In this document: piece by piece, positions 16,524-52,204 of the stretch
How the letters are laid out: every line of letters begins with the position of its first letter
Numbering within the stretch: the first letter of the stretch is position 1
Source of the DNA: Shewanella violacea DSS12
GTDB lineage: Bacteria > Pseudomonadota > Gammaproteobacteria > Enterobacterales > Shewanellaceae
Length of the DNA stretch: 64,000 nt
Assembly: GCF_000091325.1 (NCBI RefSeq)
Contig: NC_014012.1
Span: 2,958,824-3,022,823 of the forward strand
Reading direction: 5' to 3'
Notes under the pieces: generated by a model
Databases searched by the model: none
What the model saw: the letters and a program-made list of their open reading frames with translations, nothing else
Told to the model about the DNA's origin: nothing
Made by a program: the position numbers and the translations under genes

Positions 16524-17141
16524 ATGCCAGATATCGCCCTACTCGCTGTTTTTTTACCTACTTTCTTCTTTGTCGCAATCACACCCGGCATGTGCATGAC
16601 GCTCGCCATGACCTTAGGCATGAGTATCGGTGTGCGTCGAACCTTATGGATGATGGCGGGTGAATTGATTGGTGTAGCTATCGTCGCCATCGCCGCTGTC
16701 ATGGGCGTTGCAAGTATCATGCTTAACTACCCTCAAGCCTTCTCTATCATCAAGTATGCCGGCGGCGCTTACCTTATTTATATAGGTATCCAGATGTGGT
16801 TGTCTAAAGGCAAGATGACCATAACCAACGAGGCACAGACCGAAGTAAGTCGCACGACACTGCTCAATCAGGGGCTGATGACGGCTCTTTCTAATCCCAA
16901 AGGTTGGGCGTTTATGGTGTCCCTGCTACCGCCATTCATCAGTGCAGATAAGGCTGTGGCTCCTCAGCTGTTCTGGCTTTTATCTATCATATTGGCCTCT
17001 GAAGCCATTGCCATGCTTGCCTACGCATCCGGCGGCAAGAGTTTAAGAGTATTTTTGTCTAAGGGTGACAACATTAAGCTGATGAACCGCATCGCGGGTT
17101 CATTGATGATAGGTGTCGGCTTCTGGTTGGCATTAGGCTAA
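16524..17141 (+). CDS. LysE/RhtB-family amino acid exporter
   Basis: 205 residues with about six membrane helices. The family signature is TPGMCMTLAMTLGMSIGVRRTLWMMAGE near residue 18, with a central LSNPKGWAFMVSLLPPF. Exports an amino acid or related small molecule; the substrate cannot be read from sequence. ATG at 16524 has only a weak purine stretch. The hpd terminator separates it from the upstream gene. Part of its 3' end was copied to about 17510-17580 in a local duplication. Confidence 0.9.
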   Translation: MPDIALLAVFLPTFFFVAITPGMCMTLAMTLGMSIGVRRTLWMMAGELIGVAIVAIAAVMGVASIMLNYPQAFSIIKYAGGAYLIYIGIQMWLSKGKMTITNEAQTEVSRTTLLNQGLMTALSNPKGWAFMVSLLPPFISADKAVAPQLFWLLSIILASEAIAMLAYASGGKSLRVFLSKGDNIKLMNRIAGSLMIGVGFWLALG

Positions 17142-17185
17142 CGCCAACCAGAACAGGCTCTAGAACTTAGGTCCTAGAGCCTCAT

Positions 17186-17500
17186 TTATTCCTTATTCTT
17201 GAACGGCAGTGACTTAGCAGCCTCTATCATATAAAGCCGATTTTGTTCCGCTTCTTGCAGAGTGAAATTCTCGATGGCGTCTCTGAAACCTGGGTGGGCA
17301 ATCTCATGGTTTGAAAAGGTTTCCACCGGTTCAAACCCACGAGGGATCTTATGCTCTCCCTGAGCACCCGCATCGAAGTTCTGCAACCCATGCTTGATAC
17401 AGTATTCGATACCTTGGTAATAACACGCCTCGAAATGTAAAGCATCACCCTCTTCCAAACAGCCCCAATACCGGCCATAAAGATGAGTCTCGCTATTAAA
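17186..17500 (-). pseudogene. Duplicated 3' end of the FemAB-like acetyltransferase gene
   Basis: About 315 bases nearly identical to the last ~105 codons of the intact gene at 17596-19008, with the same stop codon and only scattered substitutions by eye. Homology ends at the codons after ETHLYGRYWG, near 17500. No start signal. It is the product of a partial tandem duplication, not a working gene. Confidence 0.85.
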
Positions 17501-17504
17501 ACAA

Positions 17505-17580
17505 ATAAGGCCGCAGCTCCATTTTTGACTATCATATTGGCCTCTGAAGCCATTGCCATACTTTCCTACACATTCGGCTG
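17505..17580 (+). pseudogene. Fragment of the LysE-family gene
   Basis: Bases about 17528-17575 match the LysE gene near 16984-17035 (CTATCATATTGGCCTCTGAA and onward), and a weaker match extends left (AATAAGGC...). It sits between the two acetyltransferase copies, as expected if a block running from the lysE 3' end into the acetyltransferase 3' end was duplicated and then trimmed. Confidence 0.75.
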
Positions 17581-17595
17581 AGCCAAGGAGCGCAT

Positions 17596-19008
17596 TTATT
17601 CCTTATTCTTGAACGGCAGTGACTTAGCAGCCTCTATCATATAAAGCCGATTTTGTTCCGCTTCTTGCAGAGTAAAATTCTCGATGGCGTCTCTGAAACC
17701 TGGGTGGGCTATCTCATGGTTTGAAAAGGTTTCCACCGGCTCAAACCCACGAGGGATCTTATGCTCTCCCTGAGCACCCGCATCGAAGGTCTGCAAACCA
17801 TGCTTGATACAGTATTCGATACCTTGGTAATAACACGCCTCGAAATGTAAGGCATCACCCTCTTCCAAACAGCCCCAATACCGACCATAAAGATGAGTCT
17901 CGCTATTAAAGTAGAGGGCCGCTGCGACGATTCGGCTATCGCCAAGCTCCTGTTCTGAATCTATATGGTCAGCTGAGCTCTCTGAATTATCTGAATTATC
18001 TGAATTATCTGAATTATCTAATTGTGATAATGGCTTCTCGACAACAAGCAATTGCACTTGCTCCGGCATCGTTTTTCCAATGAGTTTAAAAAAGTCTAGA
18101 TTAAGGTAGCCGTAGTGGCCAGAGCGTTTCGCATAGGTTACCTGGTAACAGTAATAGAAGGATTGCCACTGAGCTTCTGTCACCTCAAAACCGGGAACAA
18201 ACCTGAAGGTATAACCTTGTCCTTGGGCCTTATTTCTCTCTTTGATGATGTTTTTTCTTTTGCGTGAACTCATGGCACACAAGAAATCATCAAATACCTG
18301 ATAATCTTGGTTACGCCAATGAAACTGAGTGCCTGTACGCTTAAGGGGCTTTAAAGGTGAAGGTGAAGCAGAAGCAAGCTCTAACGCTAAATGGGATTGA
18401 TATTGTGGTTGTAATTGGGACTGGGACAGGGAGATGAGTCTATGTTGCGCCTCAGGCATAAATAGGCAATGCCAGCTAGAATAACTGCCGCGCCTCATCT
18501 CATGGGTTAATGTTTGAATCATCAAGGAGACGACGGACTGAGACTCTTGCTCACTTAATCGTTTATCTATACCTAACCTATTACCTGCTACTGGCGTAAA
18601 AGGCACGGCGCTCAAGATCTTAGGATAATACTCGATATGATTCCTTTCATAGGCCTCGGCCCATGCCCAATCAAACACGTATTCTCCATAAGAATGACTC
18701 TTACTGTATAGAGGCATCACAGCAATCCGCTGACCTTGGCTCAACACCGACATATGCATAGGAGTCCAGCCAGATTTAGCACACACACAGCCACTTTGCT
18801 CTAACGCCAATAGATATTCATGGCGAGTAAAGGGATTACCTCCCTTGCCACTCTCCTTAACATGATACTGCATCAAGGCATTCCATTCATCGGCAGGTAT
18901 CGCTGAAATTGATGGTGAAAACTCAAACTTTATCTCTATACCGAACAAGTACTTCTCCCATTTTTTGTCTTGCAATTTCGTATAATTAACGTCACATTGC
19001 TGAATCAT
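17596..19008 (-). CDS. FemAB-like GNAT acyltransferase (COG3146/DUF482)
   Basis: About 470 residues from ATG at 19008; a GTG at 19026 is an alternative. The family hallmarks are FTRHEYLLALEQSGC, VMPLYSKSHSYGEYVFDWAWAEAYERN and VPFTPVAGNRL in the first half, and HWRNQDYQVFDDFL, MSSRKRKNIIKER and FDAGAQGEHKIPRGFEPV in the second. These place it in the peptidoglycan biosynthesis/recognition-type acyltransferases of unknown substrate. A low-complexity insert of four Asp-Asn-Ser units (near 17987-18022, 9-bp repeats) interrupts a loop. Divergent from ggt with under 40 bases between the starts, so promoters must overlap coding DNA. Confidence 0.85.
   Translation of the reverse strand: MIQQCDVNYTKLQDKKWEKYLFGIEIKFEFSPSISAIPADEWNALMQYHVKESGKGGNPFTRHEYLLALEQSGCVCAKSGWTPMHMSVLSQGQRIAVMPLYSKSHSYGEYVFDWAWAEAYERNHIEYYPKILSAVPFTPVAGNRLGIDKRLSEQESQSVVSLMIQTLTHEMRRGSYSSWHCLFMPEAQHRLISLSQSQLQPQYQSHLALELASASPSPLKPLKRTGTQFHWRNQDYQVFDDFLCAMSSRKRKNIIKERNKAQGQGYTFRFVPGFEVTEAQWQSFYYCYQVTYAKRSGHYGYLNLDFFKLIGKTMPEQVQLLVVEKPLSQLDNSDNSDNSDNSESSADHIDSEQELGDSRIVAAALYFNSETHLYGRYWGCLEEGDALHFEACYYQGIEYCIKHGLQTFDAGAQGEHKIPRGFEPVETFSNHEIAHPGFRDAIENFTLQEAEQNRLYMIEAAKSLPFKNKE
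17986..18022. repeat. 9-bp tandem repeat inside the acetyltransferase gene
   Basis: The unit TCTGAATTA occurs about four times and encodes consecutive Asp-Asn-Ser triplets. The length is a multiple of three, so copy changes keep the frame. Confidence 0.8.
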
Positions 19009-19045
19009 AATTATAACTTTTCTCACATAAGAAAAGGGGATCTCA

Positions 19046-20794: not shown

Positions 20795-20828
20795 CCCCAG
20801 CACAATCTAGCTTGCTAGATTATTAATC

Positions 20829-20850
20829 AAGGGAAGCGCTGGCTTCCCTT
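20829..20850 (+). terminator. Hairpin after ggt
   Basis: AAGGGAAGC and GCTTCCCTT form a 9-bp stem with a 4-base loop, 35 bases past the ggt stop; the following TTAGTTAAT is only partly U-rich. Confidence 0.65.
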
Positions 20851-21255
20851 AGTTAATATCCTTAAAGCCGAACCAGGCGATGATTCCAGCTATAACCAGG
20901 CCCAATCACGGTTTATTTAACAAGCTAAACTCCCTAATACCCATCAATATAAGCCCCTTCCGACCTATATCGGCACTCAGATATTATCAAGCTTGTGGTT
21001 AGTCATTTATCTAAAAATGCCAAAGAATGTATAAAAATAAGGCGCTATCAATATTCGTTACAAACAAAACATTATTTTAATAGCATTAACACCTTCAACC
21101 ATGATACTTAAGATCTCTTAACGTCGGCTTAAGGTATTTGATGTATAAATTATCATAATAACTTTTCGTCTAGCTTAAGCTGCACGTTTTCGCCCATCAT
21201 GGGTTTGGCAACAATATGTCAACATAAGCAAATTGAAAAAATCGGGGATATAAAT
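20851..21255. other. Intergenic, upstream of the M3 peptidase
   Basis: AT-rich spacer with no supported gene. It includes an upstream in-frame ATG at 21199, rejected as the start of the peptidase because the lipoprotein signal begins at 21256. Confidence 0.35.
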
Positions 21256-23433: not shown

Positions 23434-23477
23434 GCCAAGAGCACAAATATGACGTCTGTCATTGCTTAGATTTAAAT

Positions 23478-25848: not shown

Positions 25849-25874
25849 GACTTAAACCCTGCTTAACTAAATTT

Positions 25875-36662: not shown

Positions 36663-36899
36663 AACTTTCTCCTTAAGTAAGTAGAAGGTATAGAATAGCC
36701 ATTACTCAGGAAAATACTTGACCATAAAGTTCATTATTAACTGTAACTACCGACAATCTGACACTTTAGGTAATAAATGAACAGGGTGTGAATTTTAACC
36801 CATAAAAAAGCATCAACGATTTATCATTATGCTTATGTTTATACCATCTAGGTCTCAAGTGCTCAAACTCTAGGCTCGAGCCTCATGGTCAAAACTGGT

Positions 36900-37265
36900 T
36901 AGTCTGATAGGTTAAAGATCAAAATTCACCTCTTAAACTTGAGTCAGAAGCTCACTACAGGACTCAAGCTGTTTGCACAGATCACGGGGCTTTACCGTCC
37001 AATGACTCATACAAAACATGAGCAGTTTTAAACTTTCCCCTATAGAAAGCCCAAGCTTCAATGCCTGACTCTAAGGCGGCGAACGCCGACACGGCGTTGG
37101 AATCCACATCCTGGCCAATACAGCTATCCCGAGATCCTGCATATATGCCATAGAACATGGGCCAAAAACATCTGGATGATTAGGAACAATGATGGCCAAA
37201 AAATGTTTCGCATTCTTAACATCCCCCCAAGCATCTATTAGCCCAGGACGTGATGCCCAAGATAA
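36900..37265 (-). pseudogene. Decayed duplicate of the acyl-CoA dehydrogenase 3' end
   Basis: Aligned by eye with the last ~115 codons of the intact gene at 39219-41015. LIDAWGDVKNAKHFLAI corresponds to LMDASGDLEKATQFMAV, and CSMAYMQDLGIAVLARMW to GSMPYMQILGITVVAWMW. A single-base frameshift follows MW, after which NAVSAFAALESG and AFYRGKFKTA continue in another frame. No start. Same orientation as the intact copy, about 2 kb away. Confidence 0.85.
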
Positions 37266-37473
37266 AATAGATACGGTTTTCACTGACAACATATAATGGC
37301 AAAGAAAATGGCCGAATCCATCTCCAAACGAGATGGTAAACACTTACCGTGCCAAATAAACTAGGTGTCTAGTGGGCGTTAAAATTATCTAGTGGGTACA
37401 CTGGAGGGAGTAAATGACAGGTTTGACATCTTGCTGGACCATCAAGACTCCCGAAGTGCTATGGGGAATGGCG

Positions 37474-37553
37474 ACTGACATACTGACATACTGACATAGT
37501 GACATAGTGGAATAGTGGAATAGTGGAATAGTGGAATAGTGGAATAGTGGAAT
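37474..37553. repeat. 8-bp tandem repeat, ten copies
   Basis: Three copies of ACTGACAT, one of AGTGACAT and six of AGTGGAAT run without gaps, so the array changes sequence along its length in a stepwise way. Non-coding and not CRISPR (no spacers). Confidence 0.92.
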
Positions 37554-37857: not shown

Positions 37858-38649
37858 CTATTTAACCATATATCCTAAAGTAATATCTTCTGAACTAGCA
37901 GTTGTCAAAGTTATAACCTTTAATGTTGCTTTATGGTTACCTAGGATACTTGTATCAATCTCACCCAAGAAAATGAAATCTTCATTAGTGTTAACTATTG
38001 TGCCACTATTTGCCACCAAGTCTTCAGCATCAACAGACTGATTTAGTGAATATACGGGCATATTAGTTCCCGGAGTAACAATCAGATTGCTTCCCACTTG
38101 AAGGTTATACTGAACATCAGCAACATGTTCGCCATCAACATTTAAATCTAGAGATGTCACTCCGAAACTAGTATTACTTCCAGTAGGAATAAGTGAACTC
38201 AAGCTCTTTCCTTCTAATGTCACAGTGCTAGGTGAATATATATGTATTCCAGCTTGTTCCAAGAAGTCAGTTCCGGTAATTTTAGAGTTTATTACATATT
38301 CAGGAGTGGTATTTTGCTCATAATCATTTGCAACAACAGTGTATTTGATCGTCTTATGCTGCTGCACTCCACTTGTCATACCTACAACAGTCACTTCCTG
38401 ACTATTAGCACCAGACTGTGAAACTGAAGGATGTTCCGTCTCAATAATGTAGGTATTTTCATCGGCATCTATGGTCGCTAAGCTGTCTTTCAAAAGCTGT
38501 GCATTAGTCATGCTATTATTTAAAAAGTATGAAGGTGTTACTTGCTGATCATTAATAACAACTTCGGCATTAACACTGCTTGCGAAAGATAACACTGCCA
38601 GCGATAACAATAAATGATTACGAGTTTTCTTTTTAAATGTATTTTGCAT
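37858..38649 (-). CDS. Secreted protein with three tandem domains
   Basis: 263 residues. The signal peptide ends near VNA (about residue 28). The mature protein is three diverged repeats of about 75 residues. Each opens with a TPSYFLNNSMTN / TPEYVINSKITG / MPVYSLNQSVDA stretch, then a leucine or acidic 'LL/FL/LV' turn, then beta strands ending KYTVV / YNLQV / LGYMV. The pattern resembles Ig-like surface repeats of adhesins, but no family was recognised. AT-rich for the window and set between two copies of the acyl-CoA dehydrogenase 3' end, so it may have been acquired. ATG follows GAGGCTAGGA. Confidence 0.75.
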   Translation of the reverse strand: MQNTFKKKTRNHLLLSLAVLSFASSVNAEVVINDQQVTPSYFLNNSMTNAQLLKDSLATIDADENTYIIETEHPSVSQSGANSQEVTVVGMTSGVQQHKTIKYTVVANDYEQNTTPEYVINSKITGTDFLEQAGIHIYSPSTVTLEGKSLSSLIPTGSNTSFGVTSLDLNVDGEHVADVQYNLQVGSNLIVTPGTNMPVYSLNQSVDAEDLVANSGTIVNTNEDFIFLGEIDTSILGNHKATLKVITLTTASSEDITLGYMVK

Positions 38650-39150: not shown

Positions 39151-39218
39151 ATTGGTATTATCGGTGGCTAAGGGTCGAGCTTCCTACTCAAATTCAAACT
39201 TAGCCTTAGCCTGGCAGG

Positions 39219-41015
39219 CTAAAGATCAAAATCGGTCTCTTCAAGTTGAGTCAGAAGTTCACTGCTGCATTCAATTTGCTTACGCAGGCTACGAGTCTGT
39301 ACCGTCCAATAACTCATATAAAATTGAGCCGTTTTAAGCTTGCGCTCATAGAAAGCCTTATCTTGCGTGCCTGACTCTAGGGCAGCGAGGGCTGTCACTG
39401 CGCTGCGCGTCCACATCCAAGCCACTACAGTGATCCCCAGGATCTGCATATATGGCATAGAGCCGGCGCCCAAGATATCCGGATTCTTAGCAGCATTGAC
39501 GGCCATAAACTGGGTCGCCTTCTCAAGATCCCCCGATGCATCCATCAGCCCGGCGAGATAAGGTTTCATGGCATCCTTACCCATGTTTTCACCGATAAGG
39601 GTTTTAACCATCTCAGACCAAACCATTAAGGTCGCGCCCTTGTCACCCATCACCTTACGACCAACGAGATCTAATGCCTGCACCCCATTGGTCCCTTCAT
39701 ATAACATAGCAATACGAATGTCGCGTACGTACTGCTCCATGCCCCATTCGTGAATATAACCATGGCCACCGAAAACCTGCTGAGCATCGACACAGGCATT
39801 AAAACCTCTGTCTGTAATGAAACCTTTTACTATAGGGGTAAATAACGCCGCGAGCTTATTAGCCGCTTTTGCCTTATCGGCATCGGGATGACGCTCGGCT
39901 TCATCGAGCCACAAGGCTTGCTGACCTATTAAGGCTCTAGCTCCCTCGTTAAAGGATTTTTGTGCCATCAGCATACGTCTAACATCGCCGTGGACTAAAA
40001 TAGGATCGGCAGCTTGTGACGCATCCTTTACACCACTTAAGCCTCGGCCCTGAATTCTGTCCTTGGCATAAGCCAATGCATTTTGGTAGGCAATTTCTGA
40101 TACCCCTAAGCCCTGAACGCCCACACCTAGTCTGGCTTGGTTCATCATGGTAAACATGGCTCTTAGGCCTTGGTGCGGCTCACCAATAAGCTCACCTATG
40201 GCAGCATCGAAGTTCATCACACAGGTTGAGTTACCGTGAATGCCCATCTTATGCTCGAGGGCCGCAGCACATAAGCTGTTAGCTTCGCCTAAGCTGCCAT
40301 CAGCATTGACCATTATCTTAGGCACAGCAAACAGTGATATCCCCTTCACCCCCTCCGGTGCATTGGGTAATCTGGCCAAGACGAGGTGGATGATATTTTC
40401 CGCCAAGTCATGATCTCCCGACGAGATAAATATCTTCTCACCCGAGATAGCAAACAGTCCTTCACCCGCCTCTACGGCTTTAGTTCTCAATAAAGCCAGA
40501 TCTGTCCCCGCATGGGACTCGGTCAGGTTCATGGTGCCGGTCCATTCCCCGGAAACCAATTTCTCTAAATATTTCTGTTTCAGTGCATCGCTGCCATGGG
40601 CATGAATAGCCGCATAAGCACCATGTGTGAGACCCGGATACATAGCAAATGCCATATTAGTCGCCGTTTTCATCTCGGTAGCAAACACACCAATAGATTC
40701 AGGCAGCCCCTGACCACCGTACTGCGGATCGCAGGTCAGTGTCGCCCAACCATTGTCTACATACTGTTGATACGCATCGGCAAAGCCTTTAGGGGCAATG
40801 ACCTTACCATCAACCAACTTACAACCTTCTACATCACCACTGCCATTCAGCGGCAACATAACCTCAGTGGTAAAATCCGCCACCCCTTGCAAAATTGCGT
40901 CACCTAAATCGGCGTCGATTTCATCGAAGCCTTTAAGTTCAGTGCGTTGATATATATTAAGGAGTTCATTGAGTACGAATTGATAGTCACGAAGTGGTGC
41001 TTGATATATTGGCAT
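39219..41015 (-). CDS. Acyl-CoA dehydrogenase, long (~600 aa) type
   Basis: 598 residues from the ATG at 41015, with AGGGAACAGG upstream; the longer frame adds eight residues. FAD-dependent oxidation of an acyl-CoA to the enoyl-CoA. It has the extra N-terminal segment MPIYQAPLRDYQFVLNELL, the core with MNLTESHAGTDLALLRTKA, KIFISSGDHDL and the flavin/adenine motif QQVFGGHGYIHEWGMEQYVRDIRIAMLYEGTNGVQALDL, and a long C-terminal helical domain. This architecture covers fatty acyl-CoA dehydrogenases and DmdC-type methylmercaptopropionyl-CoA dehydrogenases; the substrate is open. No beta-oxidation neighbours. Confidence 0.93.
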   Translation of the reverse strand: MPIYQAPLRDYQFVLNELLNIYQRTELKGFDEIDADLGDAILQGVADFTTEVMLPLNGSGDVEGCKLVDGKVIAPKGFADAYQQYVDNGWATLTCDPQYGGQGLPESIGVFATEMKTATNMAFAMYPGLTHGAYAAIHAHGSDALKQKYLEKLVSGEWTGTMNLTESHAGTDLALLRTKAVEAGEGLFAISGEKIFISSGDHDLAENIIHLVLARLPNAPEGVKGISLFAVPKIMVNADGSLGEANSLCAAALEHKMGIHGNSTCVMNFDAAIGELIGEPHQGLRAMFTMMNQARLGVGVQGLGVSEIAYQNALAYAKDRIQGRGLSGVKDASQAADPILVHGDVRRMLMAQKSFNEGARALIGQQALWLDEAERHPDADKAKAANKLAALFTPIVKGFITDRGFNACVDAQQVFGGHGYIHEWGMEQYVRDIRIAMLYEGTNGVQALDLVGRKVMGDKGATLMVWSEMVKTLIGENMGKDAMKPYLAGLMDASGDLEKATQFMAVNAAKNPDILGAGSMPYMQILGITVVAWMWTRSAVTALAALESGTQDKAFYERKLKTAQFYMSYWTVQTRSLRKQIECSSELLTQLEETDFDL

Positions 41016-41405
41016 TCCTGTTCCCTTTATTTTATGCAAAATGGTAAAGCTCAGGTGTTATTTATCAGGTCTTCTTTGTTAGATATCTCGTCAGTTTATA
41101 CCTAGATTTATATCTATTAACTTTTAATACGCAAGTTTCAATCATGCGTTTAACTTAATCATTTTACAAGAGAAGAACTCCGACCACTTTACTTAATTTG
41201 GTTTAAAAAACAGCATTAGTCAAAGTTTGTCCCACAGCTAGAACAGCGTTACCCTAAATTCAGCATAACGAACCCTTATGAAGGGCGAGGAAACAAGGTA
41301 AGCTAATCGTCAGTTTTTGAAATAAGTTGCGCTGCTTGAACATAAAAAAGACAAATATAGTTTCTTGAATGTACGGCGCGAATTGATGAAATGAGGAAGC
41401 AGTAA
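41016..41405. other. Divergent intergenic region
   Basis: Lies between the divergent dehydrogenase and mutarotase genes and must hold both promoters. No hexamer pair or operator was clear. Confidence 0.3.
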
Positions 41406-42603: not shown

Positions 42604-45600
42604 ATGTTAAGTCGTCTCTCACGTGCAAAGCGGCTCATGCTAGCTTTTACGTTCAGTCTATTCGCGCTCGTAGCCATTCTTATGACAAGCTACGAGAAAT
42701 TATTGCTGAGCGCTGCCAATCATTATCTTGTCGAATATAACACTCAAATCAATGAGCTGAGCATCAGGCCCACCTCCTTACACCATTGGCAGCTCCCGAC
42801 TCTCAAGTTAACTGTTCATGACAGTGAAATAAGCATCACAGACCTAGATGTGATTTTAGATAGAAATATGAGCCTTTTCAGCCTCTATTCTCAGCTAGCA
42901 TCTAGCAGCGGAGTCATGAGTTTAATAGAGAAAATTTCTATCAAAGATATCCACGGCAAACTCAGCCAAGATATATTAACCAATGAGGGCAAGCATGTTG
43001 ACGAGCAAGTTCCGACCCTGGCACTTGATCTCAATAAACTTCCTCAGATAGATATAGGTACTACCTCACTGAGCCTAGCGGGGATATCTGCTTCAGTCTT
43101 AAGCCTGACCATAGATCATTTAACCTTAGATGAAGATGGCAAGCTAAGTACGGCCATCAGTCGAAACGGCCATGCCATTTTCCAGTTAGACGCCCAATTA
43201 ATGGAGCAAGAATGGCAAGTATCGAGCCGGCTAGTCTTCGATGAATTAGACAAACTCCTCACCGATATTACTGCACGAGATATAGATACCAGTGCCCTCG
43301 CGCCCCTGCTCGCCTTGAAACAAGCGAGTGAACGACTTGGCTTGGTATTAAGTGGCAGCCTTGAGTCCCACGCCACCCTAGATCTTAAATCGGCGGATCT
43401 TAAATCGGCGCAACTTACGTCGTCCCATGTTTTAAAGCAATCAAGCCTGACACTGATGCATTTTGATGAGCTCACCTTGGCGCCTCATTCACTCAGCTCC
43501 TCAGCTACAGCAGCTTCGCCCCAAGACAGGATTAAATTTGAAATCGCCGGCCAGCTTACGGATCTAACCCTCACATTACAGCCTTTCATCCTAGAGGTTA
43601 GCCCGAGTCGCCAGCAGGTAAGCAGCCTGTTAGCCCTTATCCATAATAAAAAGATCATCCCCCTCGTGGCGACGATACTCGAATCCAGAACGAGTGTTCC
43701 ACAGGCCAGCGAAAAGAAACTCGGCCCAGAAGATGAAAAGCAAGCCATAAAGGTGTCATTCACCCTTTCTAAGCCTTTAGCATATTCCTTTGCCTCACAA
43801 AAGGTTCATCTAAGCCATGCACAACTGATGATCCGTGATGCCATGGTAGATGCATCACTTTCTGCAACTAAGCTATCACTGCAAATACCCACACAGAGTC
43901 AGGCATTCGAGCTCGAAACCGATTGGCAGTTTGCAGCGTCCCGTGAACAAGCATTGCTACTTAGCTCTCTGGTGCCTAACGAGCTAAGCTCTTTGCCTAA
44001 CAGCAAGACCATAAGCGACATCAAACTCGGTGCCTCATCTATCTCCTTGGCGGGTGATATCAAGATTCAAACACCGACAGCGAGTGATTCGCAGCAACTT
44101 AGACTCAGTATAAAGCCGAAGCTGCAGGCACAAGTAGACAGTGTGAAGCTAATTCCAGCTGCTGTTATACAAAAATCAGCGACAAATTTTGCAGCTAGCC
44201 CCCCCTTGCAATTGGAGCTTAACGATCTCAAGCTAGTGAGCCATGATGAACTGGTGATGACCTCGAGTGAGATCAATCCGGTAAGCCTAGACATTCCCAG
44301 ACTGACATTTTCTATCGGTCCAACGCGCTACAGGCAAGGCATACAGACAAATTTAGCCTCTGCCAGTAAAGAGATAGGCTTAGATGCTAACAGCCTCAAG
44401 TTTACAACTTCGGCAATGAGCCACTTGTTAGTCAACCAACAGCAAGTGATTGAGGGTCTAACCAGTAATCACCCCGACTCTAGAGTCGATAGCACATTGG
44501 CTTTATCGGCTTTCACTCTCGAGTCCGCCGATGTTGAATTTATTCAGTCCACAAATTCAACGACGAGTCTCTTGGTATCTACGGCAATGACGCGCCTAAC
44601 CAGCCAAGGTCAATTTGTGCTGCAGCGAATGGCCCATTCAGCAGCTAAAGATGAACAAGCAATACAAATAAATGTCCCCTCATTGCACTTAGCTCAGCTA
44701 GACAATGAGCTTATGTACAAACCTGTGCTATCGGCAGATCAAAGCGAATACCTAGGCACGCTATCTGGCCTAGATATCTCTTTAGAAAAGCCCAGTTCAT
44801 TGATGATATCTGACTTGTCTTCAACAGCTTTAAGTCAGATGTTATCCGCCAGGCTTTGGCACAATGTCGCTCGCTATGAGCTAAATGACGCCGAACTGAC
44901 CCATCACTATATTAAAAACAAAAGAAAACGTACCGAGAAAATGTCAGGTCTCTACACGGCGAGTCTGTCTCAAGTATTAGACTGGAATGGGGTTAAATTA
45001 GATACCCATGAAAACTGGCAATTTGATGATCTGGAATTTGTGAGTCAACATAGATTAAAGCCAAAAGTTGGCACTAAGACTCGTGCTTCACAGCTGAAAC
45101 TAACAGGGAAGTTGAATTTAGACAGTGATATCAGCAATATCCTAGCCCTTGTGAACAAGAATTATGCCCTGCCAAACTCCCTGTCAATTACGGGTGATGC
45201 CAGGCTTCGGGCTGAATATGAGCTCAATAAAGATGATGATTCGACTCAGATAAGTATCGATTTCACACCTGAACTCACCTCCCTCAGTGGCAGTATTAAC
45301 AATCTCCCCTTCGAGCAAGCCGATATTCAGGCCAGTTGTCACTATCAAATGGAGCAGCTAAATCAGTCCGCAACTCGTGAGCCTGGAGGGGAAAATATCA
45401 ACACCTTAGCCTGCCCGGATATCCAGTTTTCTGCCGCTGCGTTCAATCCAGGTGTACTGATCACAGATATCAAGGCCCAGGCAGACTTTAGCATCTCCCA
45501 TGACGATAAGATCAGCATTTCAACAGGTAAAGAGCAAGACGATGAAGCTGAAACGCGAATACTAGATACTCCAGATGCAGACAAGAAACCTATAACCACA

Positions 45601-46161
45601 AACACCTTAAGTGCAGCCAATATTCAGATGCAGGCCAGTGGCAATCTCCTCGGCGGACGCTTGCTGTTACCCGAGTTTAACTTGAGATTACACGACAAGT
45701 CTCATGGATATCTGGTGCTTCAAGGGCTGGAGGTTGAGCAACTTCTGGCAATCCAGCCTCAAGTAGGCCTCTATGCCGACGGGATCTTCGATGGCGTACT
45801 GCCAGTCGATCTAATCAAAGGAAAGATATCCATAAACGGCGGCCGGCTAACGTCGAGAGCCCCCGGCGGGCTCATCTCTGTCAGTGGCAACCCAGCGGTT
45901 GAGCAGATGCGTCAGTCCCAACCCTATTTAGATTTCGCCTTCTCCACCATGGAGCATCTCGAATATTCTGAACTCTCCAGTACCTTAGATATGGCCCCAA
46001 ATGGGGATGCTGAATTGAAAGTGAATGTGAAAGGCAAAGCGAAAGGAATTGAACGCCCTATTCACTTGAACTACTCTCAAGAAGAAAACATGCTGCAGCT
46101 GTTAAAGAGCCTACAGATCGGAGATAAGCTACAGACTCAAATAGAACAGTCGATGAACTAA
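42604..46161 (+). CDS. ydbH: YdbH-family AsmA-like intermembrane transport protein
   Basis: 1185 residues. An N-terminal membrane anchor (LMLAFTFSLFALVAILMTSY, about 11-30) is followed by a very long beta-rich periplasmic region ending in the YdbH domain (LLGGRLLLPEFNLR, LQGLEVEQLLAIQPQ, GIFDGVLPVDLIKGKISINGGRLTSRAPGG). In E. coli YdbH is one of three AsmA-like proteins that carry phospholipids between membranes, with YnbE as outer-membrane partner. Gene order with ynbE and ydbL supports that role here. No ribosome site is obvious before the ATG. Its last codons are duplicated just downstream. Confidence 0.9.
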   Translation: MLSRLSRAKRLMLAFTFSLFALVAILMTSYEKLLLSAANHYLVEYNTQINELSIRPTSLHHWQLPTLKLTVHDSEISITDLDVILDRNMSLFSLYSQLASSSGVMSLIEKISIKDIHGKLSQDILTNEGKHVDEQVPTLALDLNKLPQIDIGTTSLSLAGISASVLSLTIDHLTLDEDGKLSTAISRNGHAIFQLDAQLMEQEWQVSSRLVFDELDKLLTDITARDIDTSALAPLLALKQASERLGLVLSGSLESHATLDLKSADLKSAQLTSSHVLKQSSLTLMHFDELTLAPHSLSSSATAASPQDRIKFEIAGQLTDLTLTLQPFILEVSPSRQQVSSLLALIHNKKIIPLVATILESRTSVPQASEKKLGPEDEKQAIKVSFTLSKPLAYSFASQKVHLSHAQLMIRDAMVDASLSATKLSLQIPTQSQAFELETDWQFAASREQALLLSSLVPNELSSLPNSKTISDIKLGASSISLAGDIKIQTPTASDSQQLRLSIKPKLQAQVDSVKLIPAAVIQKSATNFAASPPLQLELNDLKLVSHDELVMTSSEINPVSLDIPRLTFSIGPTRYRQGIQTNLASASKEIGLDANSLKFTTSAMSHLLVNQQQVIEGLTSNHPDSRVDSTLALSAFTLESADVEFIQSTNSTTSLLVSTAMTRLTSQGQFVLQRMAHSAAKDEQAIQINVPSLHLAQLDNELMYKPVLSADQSEYLGTLSGLDISLEKPSSLMISDLSSTALSQMLSARLWHNVARYELNDAELTHHYIKNKRKRTEKMSGLYTASLSQVLDWNGVKLDTHENWQFDDLEFVSQHRLKPKVGTKTRASQLKLTGKLNLDSDISNILALVNKNYALPNSLSITGDARLRAEYELNKDDDSTQISIDFTPELTSLSGSINNLPFEQADIQASCHYQMEQLNQSATREPGGENINTLACPDIQFSAAAFNPGVLITDIKAQADFSISHDDKISISTGKEQDDEAETRILDTPDADKKPITTNTLSAANIQMQASGNLLGGRLLLPEFNLRLHDKSHGYLVLQGLEVEQLLAIQPQVGLYADGIFDGVLPVDLIKGKISINGGRLTSRAPGGLISVSGNPAVEQMRQSQPYLDFAFSTMEHLEYSELSSTLDMAPNGDAELKVNVKGKAKGIERPIHLNYSQEENMLQLLKSLQIGDKLQTQIEQSMN

Positions 46162-46197
46162 CTTCTTGAAGATGATTTGAGGATGTAAATACAAAAG

Positions 46198-46275
46198 GAA
46201 ACCTGCTGTAAGCATTAAAGAGCTTTCAGATAGGCGATAAGCTACAGACTCAAATAGAACTGTCGATGAACTAAG
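46198..46275 (+). pseudogene. Tandem copy of the ydbH 3' end
   Basis: 78 bases closely matching 46084-46161, including the same final codons and TAA (AGACTCAAATAGAAC is identical in both). The offset is 114 bases, a multiple of three. A remnant that lies between ydbH and ynbE. Confidence 0.88.
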
Positions 46276-46416: not shown

Positions 46417-46617
46417 GTGAAAAGACTGCCTATATTGCCCACGACCATTAGCGCGATGATCGCATTAATGGCGCTCACAGGCTGTACGCCCACAATCAAG
46501 ATTGAGCCACCGGATAAGCCGATTGTGATCAATCTGAATGTTAAGATTGAGCATGAGATCATCATTAAGATCGATAAAGAGCTCGATGAGCTGCTCACCA
46601 ACGATGAACTGTTTTAA
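46417..46617 (+). CDS. ynbE: YnbE-family outer membrane lipoprotein
   Basis: 66 residues from a GTG start with AAAAGGAA upstream. The lipobox is LTGC (Cys about 23), followed by TPTIKIEPPDKPIVINLNVKIEHEI, the conserved beta stretch of YnbE. In E. coli YnbE multimers are thought to bridge YdbH to the outer membrane. Second gene of the ydbH operon. Confidence 0.92.
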   Translation: MKRLPILPTTISAMIALMALTGCTPTIKIEPPDKPIVINLNVKIEHEIIIKIDKELDELLTNDELF

Positions 46618-46646
46618 AGCAGGCTCAAGAATTTAAGGAGTACGGA

Positions 46647-46967
46647 ATGAAAACCAAATTATTGGTGCTCGCAGCAGGACTATTGCTGAGCCTGAATGCA
46701 TTTGCCATATCGCTACATGACGCTAAGTCTCAAGGCCTGGTGGGAGAGCAGACAAATGGTTACTTAGGCATAGTAAAAAGCAGCCAAGATGCCAACAGCT
46801 TAGCCAAGCTGGTCAATGCTAAGCGTAAGGTCCATTATGAAAAAATTGCCAAGAAGAATGGCATATCGGTCAATGAAGTTGCTAAACGCGCTGCCGAAAA
46901 AGCGATGAATGCCACCAAAAAAGGCCGATACATTCAAACTAAGAGTGGAAAATGGATTAAGAAATAG
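46647..46967 (+). CDS. ydbL: YdbL-family periplasmic protein (DUF1318)
   Basis: 106 residues with a signal peptide (cleavage after NAFA, about residue 20). The mature domain starts ISLHDAKSQGLVGEQTNGYLG, the DUF1318 signature, and ends with GRYIQTKSGKWIKK. In E. coli YdbL modulates YnbE assembly. AAGGAG stands before the ATG; 29 bases after ynbE. Confidence 0.93.
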   Translation: MKTKLLVLAAGLLLSLNAFAISLHDAKSQGLVGEQTNGYLGIVKSSQDANSLAKLVNAKRKVHYEKIAKKNGISVNEVAKRAAEKAMNATKKGRYIQTKSGKWIKK

Positions 46968-47010
46968 TGCTTTGAAAACAGCCATTTCTTGTATCGATTG
47001 AACACCATAA

Positions 47011-47040
47011 GAAAGCCCGCAAACGCGGGCTTTCTGTTAT
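47011..47040. terminator. Terminator between ydbL and the nuclease gene
   Basis: GAAAGCCCGC and GCGGGCTTTC form a perfect 10-bp stem with an AAAC loop between convergent genes. It lies 43 bases past ydbL and 84 bases past the nuclease stop. Confidence 0.85.
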
Positions 47041-47123
47041 TTAGCTTTGAGTGAGTGAATACCAATGGCTATAACTCAATCCAGCGGCTCTATCTAGCAG
47101 TATTAAAGCGTGAAGAGTAAGCA

Positions 47124-49955
47124 TCAAAATTTGAGGCTTGTTTTCCCCTTGAGGCCATCGTTGTCTTTAACCACTAACTTCACTTTACTAGCACGACTGG
47201 CAAACTTGATAGCCAATGGACCCGATGCACGACTACCATCGTTAAACTTCCACGTATGTTTAGTGATATAGCCATCTTCATCGAAGCTCATAGACACAAA
47301 TAGGTCGATAAACCAGAGGTCAATATGCTGTATCACAGCAACAGGCTTAACCTTGTCAGCCTGGGTATTTATGGTGACGGTTTGCGAGACGTTATGGGTT
47401 AAGCCATCATTATCGGTAACGGTTAATGTCACTCGGTAATCGCCATCTTGTGCATATTCATGGCTGACCCTAGCAGACTCAGCGACAGCGCCGTCACCTA
47501 ACTCCCATGAGTAACTCACAATCTCACCATCTTCATCTGTGGAATTATCATTTAACGTCACCACTGCACCATCAATAGACACGGTAAAACTGGCAACCGG
47601 CGCAATATTATTTGCACCAAGTAACACAGAGATAATCACAGGGTCGTGATCCGATGAGCGATATGCATCGGCGTTGTACAAGTCAATAAGCTGGGCGTCT
47701 GACTTAAACTCTTGGTTATAATCGAGCAATCTTGGCTCATCGGTATTAATATGCCACTCGGTCACATCGATGATTTTATCCAACAGGCTAACATTAGCTA
47801 GGGCATGATCCAGCTGACCCGACTCTCCCGAATAGACATAAGAGTATGCATTGTCTTTATCGAGATGGTCGAACAACTCGGTAAACCCTGCATTTTTAAG
47901 TGCCGTTAATGGATTTTCCTGCCCATAGGCATTGAGATCCCCCATCACTAACACATCGGCCTCACCGTACTCTGCTTCTAACCACAAACCTACCGCCTCG
48001 GCGGCGCGAGTGCGGGTCAAGTTACAGTTACCTTGGCCATCATTCATATCGGGATCGCCTAAGCTGTCACAATCACTGCCCTTAGATTTAAAATGATTAA
48101 CCGCAACCACAATGACCTCATCACTGTCTAAGTGTCTAAAGCCTTGAGTCAGCATGGGACGATTCTTACCGTCGTTAAACAGTGGGTTATTATTTGCATC
48201 CAATGGTGAGTTGGCGCTTGAAAGCACCTTAGCCACGCCATCCAGGCTCACCTTGTCTAAGCGATAGATCATGCCAACAGTGATAGCATCAGTCCCTATG
48301 CCAGCGGCTGTTGCTGCGCTGACATAAGCGTAGCGTGTCTCACCTATTGCCAGGTTAAGGCCAGAAACCAGATCGGCTATAGCTGACTCACTGCCAAAGC
48401 CATCATTTTCTATCTCCATCAAGCCCAATACATCGGCATTAATGGCAACCATAGCAGCAATTATCTTGTCTCTTTGACGGGTAAACTCAGCAGCTGTGTC
48501 CGCGCCACGTGGCGTCGGAAAACCAGCTCCCGCGCCATCACCATTGAAATAGTTAAGCACATTGAAGCTAGCTAGGGTGAAGTTACCGCCTGCGGCGAGC
48601 ATTGGCGCCGAAGTTCTGGCATTCTCGGCGACGAAATTAACCGTATCCATAGGCATCAAGCGATACTTGCCAAACCCGTAGTGCATTACTGCATCGAGTC
48701 CTGTGATGGTGTCACCGACACGCACAGTATTTGATGCACTTAGTCCAGGAGCTGGATAACGCACAGGATCTGGATTTTGCGATGTCAGTCCATCGTCTAA
48801 CACTATGGCATCTTTGGCATTCGCAGCAGTTACCGCCAGTGCCTCGCTGCCAGGGGCGGCAACTTGAGTTCCTATGTAATGACGTTGGCTGCCTAACAGT
48901 AACTCACCATAACGGCCTAAGTTATAGACTTCGTTCACTGTTAAGTTATGGCTGAAACTGACGCGCATCCCTTCGAACGCTTCGAGATCACTGGTTTCAT
49001 CCATAGGCAAGGTCACTATAGCGGCTGTTGGCATAGCCTGAGCCGAATCACAGAGTATATGAGCAGCCACATCGGTCAGCTCAGTCAAGCCATTATATTC
49101 TTTTACCTTAGCCTGAATACGAATACGGTCACCGGCAAGATACCCGGTCGCGCTGCCCGTATAGACAAACACACCTTCAGAGGTCAAGGGATCGCCGTCT
49201 ACTTCATTGTCGGCCATCTGCACAAACAAGCCCTTAAGACCCGCTTCTTGATTACTGGTGACTATGGCTTCGACTTCGACAAGCTGACCATTGAGTGGAC
49301 TGGTATCGGTCAAACCTTGAATGGTATGGATAGCCGTAGAGAGGTCATGACACACAAGTGTCACAGGTTCTGTTGGATCTGTTGGATCTGTTGGATCAGC
49401 ATTAAACTGTCCAAGATCTGAAAAATCATCCTTGGCAAAACCCTGCCAGGTATCTAAGCTCACCTCATCGTCAATAACGCTATCGCCCATAAGCTGAGCC
49501 GGATCCCGGCGAAGCGTGTTGTCCTGAGTCGACAAATCACCGCTGCCCCACTGACTACCCGGATCTACACCAACCTGACCTAGGCTATCGACCACAACAC
49601 CGGATTTTCTGAGAACGATAGCATCATCGCCGTTAAAAAAACTCGAGTTACTCACTTGATTAGCCAGCGCCAAGATTTCGGTATTGGCATCATTATCGGC
49701 TAGAACATAAGTCTGCCCCCCAGCCAAAGTTCCTGTCAGAGCTATAGTCGAACCCACATCAGTTCTGCCGTTAAAATAGTATTCGACTTGGTATTGGCTG
49801 AGATCGATATCAATATTGGTAGGATTGTAGAACTCGATGGCCTTATTGCTACTACTGCCTTCGACATATTCAGAAATGATCAGATGATCGCCTGCCTGAG
49901 CGAACGTGGCAACACCACCTATCGCCAAGGCAAGCAAACTTACTTTGGTAAACAT
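47124..49955 (-). CDS. exeM: ExeM/NucH-type extracellular endonuclease with LTD and PKD domains
   Basis: 943 residues, signal peptide ending QAGD (about residue 22). Residues about 22-130 form a lamin-tail domain (LIISEYVEGSSSNKAIEFYN); a DPTDPTDPTEP linker follows; then an OB-like region; then the nuclease of the endonuclease/exonuclease/phosphatase fold (LASFNVLNYFNG, GLMEIENDG, VNHFKSKGSDCD, VMGDLNAYGQ, SSDHDPVI). One clear PKD domain (about 800-875) and a second, shorter PKD-like segment close the protein. Shewanella ExeM degrades extracellular DNA. No GlyGly-CTERM tail is visible here. ATG follows AAGGGG. Confidence 0.92.
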   Translation of the reverse strand: MFTKVSLLALAIGGVATFAQAGDHLIISEYVEGSSSNKAIEFYNPTNIDIDLSQYQVEYYFNGRTDVGSTIALTGTLAGGQTYVLADNDANTEILALANQVSNSSFFNGDDAIVLRKSGVVVDSLGQVGVDPGSQWGSGDLSTQDNTLRRDPAQLMGDSVIDDEVSLDTWQGFAKDDFSDLGQFNADPTDPTDPTEPVTLVCHDLSTAIHTIQGLTDTSPLNGQLVEVEAIVTSNQEAGLKGLFVQMADNEVDGDPLTSEGVFVYTGSATGYLAGDRIRIQAKVKEYNGLTELTDVAAHILCDSAQAMPTAAIVTLPMDETSDLEAFEGMRVSFSHNLTVNEVYNLGRYGELLLGSQRHYIGTQVAAPGSEALAVTAANAKDAIVLDDGLTSQNPDPVRYPAPGLSASNTVRVGDTITGLDAVMHYGFGKYRLMPMDTVNFVAENARTSAPMLAAGGNFTLASFNVLNYFNGDGAGAGFPTPRGADTAAEFTRQRDKIIAAMVAINADVLGLMEIENDGFGSESAIADLVSGLNLAIGETRYAYVSAATAAGIGTDAITVGMIYRLDKVSLDGVAKVLSSANSPLDANNNPLFNDGKNRPMLTQGFRHLDSDEVIVVAVNHFKSKGSDCDSLGDPDMNDGQGNCNLTRTRAAEAVGLWLEAEYGEADVLVMGDLNAYGQENPLTALKNAGFTELFDHLDKDNAYSYVYSGESGQLDHALANVSLLDKIIDVTEWHINTDEPRLLDYNQEFKSDAQLIDLYNADAYRSSDHDPVIISVLLGANNIAPVASFTVSIDGAVVTLNDNSTDEDGEIVSYSWELGDGAVAESARVSHEYAQDGDYRVTLTVTDNDGLTHNVSQTVTINTQADKVKPVAVIQHIDLWFIDLFVSMSFDEDGYITKHTWKFNDGSRASGPLAIKFASRASKVKLVVKDNDGLKGKTSLKF
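49369..49398. repeat. 9-bp repeat coding the nuclease linker
   Basis: TGTTGGATC is repeated three times and encodes the (Asp-Pro-Thr)n linker between the LTD and OB-like regions. Confidence 0.8.
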
Positions 49956-50336
49956 ATTAACCCCTTAATATTATCCATTTAACCCAGTTTTAATTAGAGC
50001 ATTTGACTATTTCGTTCAAATTACTCAAGTTTTCATCCTAAAAAACTAGTGGATACTATAAAGGAGTTTTATTTCCAAAAGGTTGCGCTTAAGTTGCAAT
50101 AGTTGGAATAGTTGAAATAGTTCGATTTTGTATCATTTAATAAGCTAAGAAGTGTTTAACTATCTTTACAGTGATAGATCAACACTATAGTCATTATGGG
50201 CTATCAGTCTTAACGCTTATTTGTCAGAACAGCATATTTTATTGCCATAACTCCTCATCAGATGATCAAAGCAACAAATATTTATATCCTATGGCCAACT
50301 CACCCGTGCGCTAGATCAGCTTATACAAAATCAGCG
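49956..50336. other. Divergent intergenic region between exeM and dcu
   Basis: Includes a degenerate 9-bp repeat (TTGCAATAG, TTGGAATAG, TTGAAATAG) at about 50094-50120. No gene seen. Confidence 0.35.
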
Positions 50337-50352
50337 CGTGAGCTCCATCACA
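50337..50352 (+). promoter_or_regulatory. Possible CRP site upstream of dcu
   Basis: CGTGA, six bases, TCACA: one mismatch from TGTGA-N6-TCACA, 130 bases before the likely start. CRP is the main anaerobic regulator known in Shewanella oneidensis, which would suit a C4-dicarboxylate carrier. A single match is weak evidence. Confidence 0.35.
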
Positions 50353-50481
50353 CCTTAAAAAAATAGTGATTTTCTCCCATAAACTTAAGGTTTAACAGGA
50401 GTAAAATCTAATTTGTTTCACTTGTCTAACATCTCTTCGACAAACGGCTTTTCGCTAATTGGCTTCAAATTAAGGTTACTT

Positions 50482-51783
50482 ATGATCGCTATAGAATTTT
50501 TTGTTGTGCTTGCTTTTATCTATCTTGGCGCACGAATAGGTGGGATAGGAATAGGACTGGCCGGCGGCGCTGGCGTCTTAGTACTGACCCTGTTTATGGG
50601 GGTCGATACCGGACATATTCCCGTTGATGTTATCTTGATCATCATGTCAGTAATCACGGCGATTGCAGCAATGCAGGTGGCTGGAGGTCTTGATTGGTTG
50701 GTGGATTTATCCGAACGTTTCCTGCGAAAAAACCCCAAACGCATCACCTTCTACGCCCCCATAGTCACGTATTTCATGACCTTGCTTGCAGGCACTGGAC
50801 ATACCGCATTCTCAACACTGCCAGTCATAGCTGAAGTTGCCAAAGAGCAAGGCATACGCCCTTCCCGCCCTTTGAGTATCTCTGTCATTGCCTCACAAAT
50901 TGCCATCACAGCATCACCTATCTCTGCGGCTGTGGTGTTCTTCTCCGGGCTATTGGAGCCCTTAGGTGTGGGTTATTTAACCTTACTAGCCATCTGTATT
51001 CCGACCACATTTACTGCCTGCATGGTAGGTGCATTCGTCGCGAATTTCTTAGGTTGTGAGCTCAAGGATGACAAAATCTATCAGGAGAGACTGGCAAAGG
51101 GCTTGGTAAAACTTAAGGGACACACCCAAAGAGAGATACTGCCTACCGCCAAGTTAGCCACCGGGATATTCGTAACAGCCATTGTTTGTGTGATTATTTA
51201 TGCCACACTGATTTCCGATGCAGTCAATATCATAGAAAACCCAACACTGGGCCGCAACGATGCCATCATGGTATTTATGCTAACAGCTGCCACAGCTATT
51301 GTGACTTTCACAAAAATAGATGCATCAGAAATAGCCAATGCAGCCACTTTCAAGTCAGGCATGAGCGCCTGTATTTGTGTGCTAGGTGTTGCTTGGCTGG
51401 GTGATACATTTGTCTCCGGCCATATCGACGAGATCAAAGCCTTCTCATCAGACATACTCCATCAATATCCCTGGATGTTGGCAGTCACCTTATTCTTCGC
51501 CTCCATGCTGCTCTACTCACAAGGTGCTACCACTACCGCATTAATGCCAGCCGCTCTGGCCATTGGCGTGGCCCCCATTACCGCCATCGCATCATTTTCA
51601 GCGGTTAGTGCCCTGTTCGTGCTACCAACATACCCCACTCTGCTTGCCGCGGTGGAGATGGATGATACCGGCTCAACACGTATCGGTAATCTAGTGTTTA
51701 ACCATCCTTTCTTTATTCCAGGCTTAGTGACAGTCATAACCTCTGTATCCTTAGGCTTCTTGATCGGCGGGCTCGTATTATAA
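50482..51783 (+). CDS. Anaerobic C4-dicarboxylate transporter, DcuA/DcuB family
   Basis: 433 residues from the ATG at 50482, which matches the family start (MIAIEFFVVLAFIYLGARIGGI) and length; TAAGG lies upstream. A longer frame begins with TTG at 50413. About ten to twelve membrane helices. Dcu signatures are present: LLAGTGHTAFSTLPVIAEVAKEQGIRPSRPLS and ASPISAAVVFFSGLL. Exchanges fumarate, aspartate or malate for succinate during anaerobic growth. The last helix (VTVITSVSLGFLIGGLVL) is duplicated four more times directly downstream. Confidence 0.92.
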   Translation: MIAIEFFVVLAFIYLGARIGGIGIGLAGGAGVLVLTLFMGVDTGHIPVDVILIIMSVITAIAAMQVAGGLDWLVDLSERFLRKNPKRITFYAPIVTYFMTLLAGTGHTAFSTLPVIAEVAKEQGIRPSRPLSISVIASQIAITASPISAAVVFFSGLLEPLGVGYLTLLAICIPTTFTACMVGAFVANFLGCELKDDKIYQERLAKGLVKLKGHTQREILPTAKLATGIFVTAIVCVIIYATLISDAVNIIENPTLGRNDAIMVFMLTAATAIVTFTKIDASEIANAATFKSGMSACICVLGVAWLGDTFVSGHIDEIKAFSSDILHQYPWMLAVTLFFASMLLYSQGATTTALMPAALAIGVAPITAIASFSAVSALFVLPTYPTLLAAVEMDDTGSTRIGNLVFNHPFFIPGLVTVITSVSLGFLIGGLVL

Positions 51784-51802
51784 ATCGAGTGTTTGGTGTT
51801 TG

Positions 51803-52204
51803 GTGTTTAACCATGCTTTGTTCTTTATTCCAGGCTTAGTGACAGTCATAACCTCTGTATCCTTGGGCTTCTTGATCGGCGGGCTCGTATTATAAGGTTT
51901 GGTGTTTAACCATGCTTTGTTCTTTATTCCAGGTTTGGTGACAGTCGTAACTTCCGTATCCTTAGGCTTCTTGATCGGCGGGCTCGTATTATAAATCGAG
52001 TGTTTAGTGTTTAACCATGCTTTGTTCTTTATTCCAGGCTTAGTGACAGTCATAACCTCTGTATCCTTGGGCTTCTTGATCGGCGGGCTCGTATTATAAA
52101 TCGAGTGTTTGGTGTTTAACCATGCTTTGTTCTTTATTCCAGGCTTAGTGACAGTCATAACCTCTGTATCCTTAGGCTTCTTGATCGGCGGGCTCGTGCT
52201 GTAA
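51803..52204 (+). repeat. Four tandem copies of the dcu 3' end
   Basis: Copies at 51803-51895, 51902-51994, 52007-52099 and 52112-52204, each about 93 bases, repeat bases 51693-51783 of the gene. Starts are 99 to 105 bases apart (110 from gene to first copy). Each copy is open from GTGTTTAACCAT to its own TAA and encodes nearly the same 30 residues (FIPGLVTVITSVSLGFLIGG). All four share GCTTTGTTC where the gene has CCTTTC. No ribosome sites precede them. Confidence 0.93.

Follow-up and report, generated by a model that had tools for sequence, protein, structure and literature searches.

Tandem copies of gene 3' ends recur in the genome of Shewanella violacea DSS12: probably tolerated local duplications, with subsequent exchange with the intact gene

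The stretch analysed here, a window of 64,000 nucleotides of the Shewanella violacea DSS12 chromosome (contig NC_014012.1, positions 2,958,824 to 3,022,823), contains partial gene copies at four loci, those of lysE and a convergent FemAB-like gene, of an acyl-CoA dehydrogenase gene, of ydbH and of dcu, and raises the question of why the 3' ends of genes, stop codon included, should be duplicated. A preliminary description of the window had offered two readings, a recurrent process such as slippage or template switching near stalled or terminating transcription complexes, or simply that copies of 3' ends are tolerated. Self-BLAST of the window rendered direct copies at all four loci, with E values from 3e-159 to 9e-14, and since even the weakest of these matches has the latter value in a 64 kb self-comparison, chance is excluded. 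The account that we regard as probable is that local tandem duplications are filtered by tolerance, and that the copies then undergo unequal exchange, or conversion, with the end of the gene.

The four loci are typical of the genome. Sixty stretches of 20 kb distributed over the chromosome, the window excluded, were analysed (1.2 Mb, 24% of a genome that consists of one contig of 4,962,103 bp), with open reading frames (ORFs) of at least 100 aa called by a simple script of our own rather than taken from a curated annotation. A tandem-like array was defined as direct copies with a length of at least 40 nt, a gap of at most 150 nt and E of at most 1e-6. Sixty-seven such arrays were found, of which 25 cross the 3' end of a gene, 19 are intergenic, 19 lie within genes, three cross a 5' end and one contains a gene; the difference between 3'-crossing and 5'-crossing arrays is highly significant (binomial p = 3e-5). 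For the 3'-crossing arrays, and for L127, a 3'-end array tallied as in-gene owing to an overlapping ORF, up to 900 letters of sequence each were inspected by eye. A separate scan covered 646 of the 775 genes of at least 150 aa, those having a 1 kb flank on each side, and was symmetric, copies of 3' ends, middles and 5' ends being sought both upstream and downstream. A copy of the 3' end within 1 kb downstream was found for 19 genes, in 18 of them including the stop codon, and a copy of the 5' end upstream for two (19 versus 2, p = 2e-4), while four genes had a copy of their middle (three downstream, one upstream). The 5' end was copied downstream in two genes and the 3' end upstream in one, these copies stemming from paralogous or duplicated genes next to each other (L148, L075); at L075 a single 559-nt duplication of pieces of neighbouring genes accounts for one case in each group (3' end downstream, 5' end upstream), leaving 18 to 1. 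Inverted copies were not found in any of the 646 genes. A recurrent process, as suspected in the preliminary description, exists, and the excess of 3'-end over 5'-end and middle copies that it predicted is present in the sampled genome.

The units of these arrays, of ca. 60 to 300 nt, begin within the gene and extend past the stop codon into a short piece of the following sequence; they are present from two to about ten times. The genes affected are for the most part identifiable cellular genes, among them gltA (citrate synthase), hemF (coproporphyrinogen oxidase), tamB, a cation ATPase gene, ndpA, and genes for a cyclophilin, transporters and LysR regulators, and 18 of the 20 array genes scanned had a Pfam match. 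Sharing of array sequence with other places was checked in a sample of 1.264 Mb, in which 38 of 51 arrays were unique and 13 overlapped dispersed repeats; a common mobile element was rejected on this ground, and identity of the arrays with repetitive extragenic palindromes (REP) or miniature inverted-repeat transposable elements (MITE) did not hold either. Integrative elements that target gene 3' ends are known to leave 3'-end duplicates, and these resemble the present copies in that the gene end, with its stop codon, is present twice. Displacement of gene ends by such elements would suit the acyl-CoA dehydrogenase copy, which lies 2.3 kb from its gene with an ORF (37858-38649) between them. 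However, the copy nearest to the gene starts 3 to 262 nt past the stop in all 31 gene ends examined, too close for an element to fit in between in the tandem cases; the units moreover number up to about ten, and most arrays are unique. For the tandem cases this explanation is already contradicted, and overall we consider it highly improbable. Two large arrays were wholly intergenic, one of approximately six 291-nt units at 97% identity (L067:16089-17850) and one of approximately twelve 87-nt units (L139:3326-4343).

The position of the arrays relative to neighbouring genes points to tolerance. Convergent gaps hold 18 arrays in 131 gaps, divergent gaps two in 133 and co-directional gaps 25 in 492, with three arrays at stretch ends left unplaced in this count; convergent and divergent gaps, nearly equal in number and in length, differ with p = 1e-4. 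Divergent gaps are expected to hold two promoters. Within genes, the period is divisible by 3 in 18 of 19 arrays versus 12 of 48 outside genes, and a frame filter is therefore visible, although old protein repeats may add to the first figure. The stop codon takes a nearly random position in the unit (on average 0.64 of the unit lies in the gene, 0.59 being expected; Kolmogorov-Smirnov p = 0.18, 27 gene ends). Given the scarcity of arrays at 5' ends and in divergent gaps, the in-frame periods within genes and the lack of a preferred position for the stop, tolerance would be the main factor, and tolerance together with geometry accounts for most of the 3' bias. Given the lengths of gaps and units, 25 of 40 arrays cross a 3' end rather than being wholly intergenic, when 20.2 are expected (P = 0.09). 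With placement this near to the geometric expectation, simple tolerance is the better fit of the two readings offered in the preliminary description. Short repeats, taken as a yardstick of tolerance, also favour convergent over divergent gaps in S. violacea (ca. 3:1 per kb), and the convergent bias of the long arrays is not significantly above theirs (p = 0.20, same genome).

Several observations weigh against tolerance as the whole answer. When the 13 of 51 arrays that overlap dispersed repeats are left out, 23 of 30 arrays cross a 3' end and 15.1 are expected (P = 0.003). The convergent preference of short repeats holds in S. violacea and in its relative G010, but not in a second relative, G003, and in a third, G011, the 1-12 nt class goes in the opposite direction while the 13-24 nt class agrees. 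In a simpler placement of the whole sample, the ratio of 3'-crossing to intergenic arrays was 1.6 to 2.1 times expectation and that of 5'-crossing arrays 0.17 to 0.35, depending on the ORF cut-off, and among arrays of at least 93% identity 3'-crossing and intergenic ones stand at 9:4 (locus-specific arrays) or 11:4 (all). A modest true preference for 3' ends, at most about two- to three-fold, may therefore exist. It may also be the case that a constrained gene end keeps its copies detectable for longer, which would be a candidate explanation of the excess of 23 in 30.

An active alternative is that transcription termination, by way of stalled polymerase, R-loops or hairpins, directs duplication to 3' ends, tolerance only adding to the effect. 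The excess of 3' over 5' ends, the richness of convergent gaps in arrays and the locus-specific arrays beyond geometry would all be in line with this. On the other hand, the arrays taken together fit geometry, the stop codon is placed nearly at random within units, and there is no leading/lagging strand bias, array genes standing at 15:10 and all genes of at least 150 aa at 487:285. By inspection, terminator-like hairpins lie within some units and in others only behind the last copy, so that several arrays are situated between the stop and a terminator that is outside the unit; moreover, intergenic and in-gene arrays occur too. The link to stalled or terminating transcription proposed in the preliminary description thus received no support from geometry, stop position or strand, and apart from the residual 23 in 30 nothing found points to it. 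We consider such a role of termination unlikely.

Whether the copies remain as they were formed was approached through orthologues of seven genes in four close relatives (Shewanella benthica DSM 8812, or G058; the metagenome-assembled genome (MAG) DT_112, or G027; G003; and G010) and in several more distant ones. BLAST detected 3'-end copies of dcu in G003, DSM 8812 and DT_112 and not in G010, and of the cation ATPase gene in DSM 8812, DT_112 and G010 and not in G003. Among these four genomes a hemF copy was found in DSM 8812 only and a gltA copy in G003 only, and for ydbH, tamB and femAB no 3'-end copy was detected in any of the four. Decayed remnants below the BLAST threshold were seen by eye for dcu in G010 and for ydbH in DSM 8812, DT_112 and G010. 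In the distant genomes G011, G014, G009, G047 and G004, a copy was present in none of the 23 gene-genome pairs tested. The dcu copy also occurs in a contig named MAG-BB-1 and in strain UCD-KL12. A contig labelled Moritella sp. JT01 (L222) encodes a dcu protein 92% identical to that of the window, without 3' copies.

The dcu copies in S. violacea, G003, S. benthica DSM 8812, KT99 and DT_112 carry the mark CATGCTTTGTTC, observed in the first copy in KT99, where the gene has CATCCTTTC. Since copies in five genomes carry a mark that is absent from the gene, the dcu duplication is common to these species. In the 62 nt past this mark, copies are 92-98% identical to their own gene in S. violacea (four copies), 100% in G003 (three copies, a fourth, decayed one having been missed by the pattern) and 100% in DT_112 (one copy), versus 79-90% between the genes of different species. 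Exchange between gene and copies thus continued after speciation, at dcu at least. Beyond dcu, the cation ATPase copies of S. violacea have 93-96% identity with their own gene, as compared with 77-85% for the other genes of the clade, and the first ATPase copy of G010 is 92% like its own gene, which supports concerted evolution in the former genome and partly in the latter. The gltA copies of S. violacea and G003 have a common mark, CACCCTGTTATGG, and thus a common ancestry across the two species, and in each genome they have the variant of the own gene near the stop; this support for concerted evolution is weak, and for hemF there is none.

The points that speak against such homogenisation are the following. 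The dcu copy of DSM 8812 is 75% and the KT99 copies are 79-84% like their own gene, so that copies resembling their own gene most are found for dcu in three of the five genomes, and the last dcu copies of G003, DSM 8812 and KT99 have a common old sequence that has not been homogenised. In DSM 8812 the two ATPase copies reach 83 and 81% identity with their gene, while one of them is 89% like that of G003. Over its whole length, the gltA copy of G003 is 94% like both its own gene and that of DSM 8812, and the hemF copies of S. violacea are equally close, at 93%, to their own gene and to that of DSM 8812. Finally, the rise of identity towards the stop in stop-anchored alignments (23 up, 5 down, 3 ties) vanishes when alignment ends are free (20 up, 13 down, 3 ties, p = 0.28). 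For that reason, such polarity was not taken to prove unequal crossing-over. Because exchange can homogenise copies with the gene, decay does not date them; the different ages that the preliminary description had read from unequal decay do not follow, the dcu duplication being shared and its copies nevertheless matching their own gene in three of five genomes.

The persistence of the copies could also mean that selection keeps the arrays, the extra 3' ends acting in the 3' untranslated region of the mRNA or providing the gene end with a reserve for recombination. Although tandem repeats should be prone to loss, the dcu and gltA arrays have outlasted divergences at four-fold sites of 0.40-0.48 (dcu, S. 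violacea versus G003, DSM 8812, KT99 and DT_112) and 0.15 (gltA, S. violacea versus G003), with copy-only marks kept in five genomes. Against this, the arrays are patchy within the five clade genomes (that of gltA in S. violacea and G003 only, that of tamB in S. violacea only, that of the ATPase absent from G003), copies seen by inspection bear indels, the genes concerned have no evident common function, and the ydbH copy contains an internal stop. Selection for the arrays is accordingly very unlikely. As for an assembly artefact, tandem repeats are hard to assemble, but arrays recur at corresponding genes in separate assemblies of related species, those of dcu and gltA having their marks in common as well, by which the idea is already contradicted and hardly credible.

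The comparison with related genomes that the preliminary description had proposed, for which few genomes were available (G003, G010 and G011, sampled at 0.4 Mb each), rendered a downstream 3'-end copy in one of 217, one of 247 and one of 234 genes, respectively, i.e. 3 of 698 versus 19 of 646 in S. violacea (p = 3e-4), where such copies are ca. 7-fold commoner. Arrays outside genes number 48 per 1.2 Mb in S. violacea, and nine, seven and four per 0.4 Mb in G003, G010 and G011, differences that are not significant (p = 0.13), borderline (0.04) and clear (0.002), respectively. In contigs that all surround dcu, and are hence not a random sample of their genomes, one of 112 genes in other Shewanella and none of 759 genes in other genera had a downstream 3'-end copy; outside genes, these contigs hold five arrays in 90 kb of five close-relative contigs (none in the Moritella-labelled one), one in 208 kb of 12 other Shewanella contigs, and two in 1,264 kb of 63 contigs from other genera. 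With Tandem Repeats Finder, units of 61-500 nt were found at 30 per Mb in S. violacea versus 12.5, 2.5 and 2.5 in G003, G010 and G011, and units of 31-60 nt at 10.8 versus 2.5, 0 and 0. For short units the densities in S. violacea and G011 are 42.5 and 32.5 per Mb (1-12 nt) and 45.0 and 45.0 (13-30 nt), the 1-12 nt class being lower in G003 (17.5) and G010 (20.0). A general slippage or mismatch-repair defect was rejected, since only the classes above 30 nt stand out and short repeats are raised little or not at all over G011.

We therefore return to tolerated local duplication followed by exchange. Locus-specific tandem duplications of ca. 60-300 bp would arise at random positions, at a rate raised in this lineage, through replication template switching or slipped misalignment and, once two copies exist, also through unequal exchange. 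Selection would remove those that are out of frame within genes or that span starts and promoters. A duplication that begins in a gene and ends just behind it would leave the gene whole and could persist, and one that spans a convergent pair would leave both genes whole, lysE/FemAB being an example. Unequal crossing-over or gene conversion between gene end and copies would then alter copy number and keep the copies gene-like, so that arrays could be old and yet nearly identical.

The cause of the raised rate might lie in a nuclease. Loss of SbcC, ExoI or RecJ was rejected, as open-frame matches are present in the S. violacea genome, those of ExoI and RecJ above cut-off and the SbcC-like one below its family cut-off, as in most genomes searched. 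The frame of xseA, encoding the large subunit of exonuclease VII (ExoVII), is broken into two overlapping ORFs of 319 and 178 aa (G000:C1:1581259-1582555, L299; G000 is the genome of the window), whereas it is whole (451 aa) in seven of seven relatives searched, S. violacea being the only one of the eight with the break. Exonuclease VII has been reported, with other single-strand exonucleases, to restrict RecA-independent recombination between short repeats, and a higher duplication rate could have followed from its loss. This lead comes from a single genome, which is no proof, and is weakened by the presence of some arrays in relatives with an intact xseA; the break itself may be a sequencing error. 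A bolder proposal would be that deep-sea Shewanella possesses an active process with a preference for copying the 3' ends of genes, the copies continuing to be exchanged with their gene. In perhaps a hundred genes, by extrapolation from the 25 arrays in 1.2 Mb, the last codons and the stop would then evolve by way of a local downstream reserve, the broken ExoVII of S. violacea perhaps having raised the rate; we regard this proposal as quite unlikely.

Minisatellite-like tandem duplication by slipped misalignment or template switching is well known, and the present arrays share with it the head-to-tail arrangement of ca. 60-300 bp units, the mostly locus-specific sequence and a copy number that varies among relatives. 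They differ in that they concentrate on gene 3' ends with the stop included, and in that units of 61-500 nt are raised in S. violacea and short repeats little or not over G011. Repeated genes are also known to evolve in concert by unequal exchange or gene conversion, as dcu copies closest to the gene of their own species despite a shared duplication would suggest; here, however, exchange would be between an intact gene end and truncated copies downstream of it. S. violacea thus offers one bacterial genome with long-unit tandem duplications in numbers and with natural controls in its 5' ends, divergent gaps, in-gene arrays and sister species. It also carries the warning that the similarity of a gene fragment does not date the duplication event. 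How exchange with non-coding copies shapes functional gene ends, and whether loss of single-strand exonucleases raises such rearrangements in nature, become open to test.

In the window itself (Table 1), direct, adjacent, local tandem copies are found at three of the four loci. A repeat search of four sub-regions recovered these three, the acyl-CoA dehydrogenase gene being outside the sub-region given, and the copy of this gene, for the distance noted above, is not a close tandem. The order at the first locus is whole lysE, FemAB end, lysE piece, whole FemAB, which would be the outcome of a single tandem duplication spanning two convergent gene ends, the remainder of the second lysE piece having probably been deleted later. 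This piece is internal, ending 108 nt short of the lysE stop, and here the preliminary description, which had taken it for a copy of the lysE end, did not hold. At dcu, units of ca. 100 nt comprise the gene end (51684-51783) and copies at 51796-51895, 51895-51994, 52000-52099 and 52105-52204, all four with the stop codon; with regard to short homology at the breakpoints of the founding duplication, a TAA common to the stop and to the start of the copied stretch was seen by eye at this single locus inspected. No Rfam match at gathering score was found within the window.

Table 1. Genes and copies at the four loci of the window (positions are those of the window)
Feature	Position	Strand	Source of copy	Identity	Basis
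lysE-family gene, intact, convergent with FemAB-like gene	16524..17141	+			PF01810
FemAB-like 3'-end copy	17183..17500	-	17593-17910	97.8%	self-BLAST, repeat search
lysE piece, 56 nt	17523..17578	+	16978-17033	89%	self-BLAST, repeat search
FemAB-like / GNAT acetyltransferase gene, intact	17596..19026	-			PF04339
Acyl-CoA dehydrogenase 3'-end copy, decayed	36899..37244	-	39206-39551	74.6%	self-BLAST
Acyl-CoA dehydrogenase-like gene, intact	39219..41039	-			acyl-CoA dehydrogenase models, matches below equivalog cut-offs
ydbH gene, intact	42604..46161	+			PF11739
ydbH 3'-end copy, decayed, ends exactly at stop	46195..46274	+	46082-46161	85%	self-BLAST, repeat search
dcu-type C4-dicarboxylate transporter gene, intact	50413..51783	+			PF03605, NF006927/TIGR00770 above cut-off
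dcu array, five 3'-end units, unit 1 being the gene's own end	51684..52204	+			self-BLAST, repeat search

Other repeats were observed in the window. Near the acyl-CoA dehydrogenase copy there are 8-nt tandem repeats (ACTGACAT, ATAGTGGA) at 37472-37553. Three similar stretches of ca. 95 nt, at 54178-54270, 54693-54786 and 58013-58108 (within 53562-58110), run from near TAACAAG to near GCGTTAT, with small ORFs directly ahead of two of them, and presumably resemble integron attC sites with gene cassettes. Between these attC-like stretches, at 55908-57907, an IS91-family transposase (NF033538, above cut-off) adjoins a tyrosine recombinase that is below the integron-integrase and Xer cut-offs, and a second, partial match to the end of the transposase was found by self-BLAST at 60169-60584.

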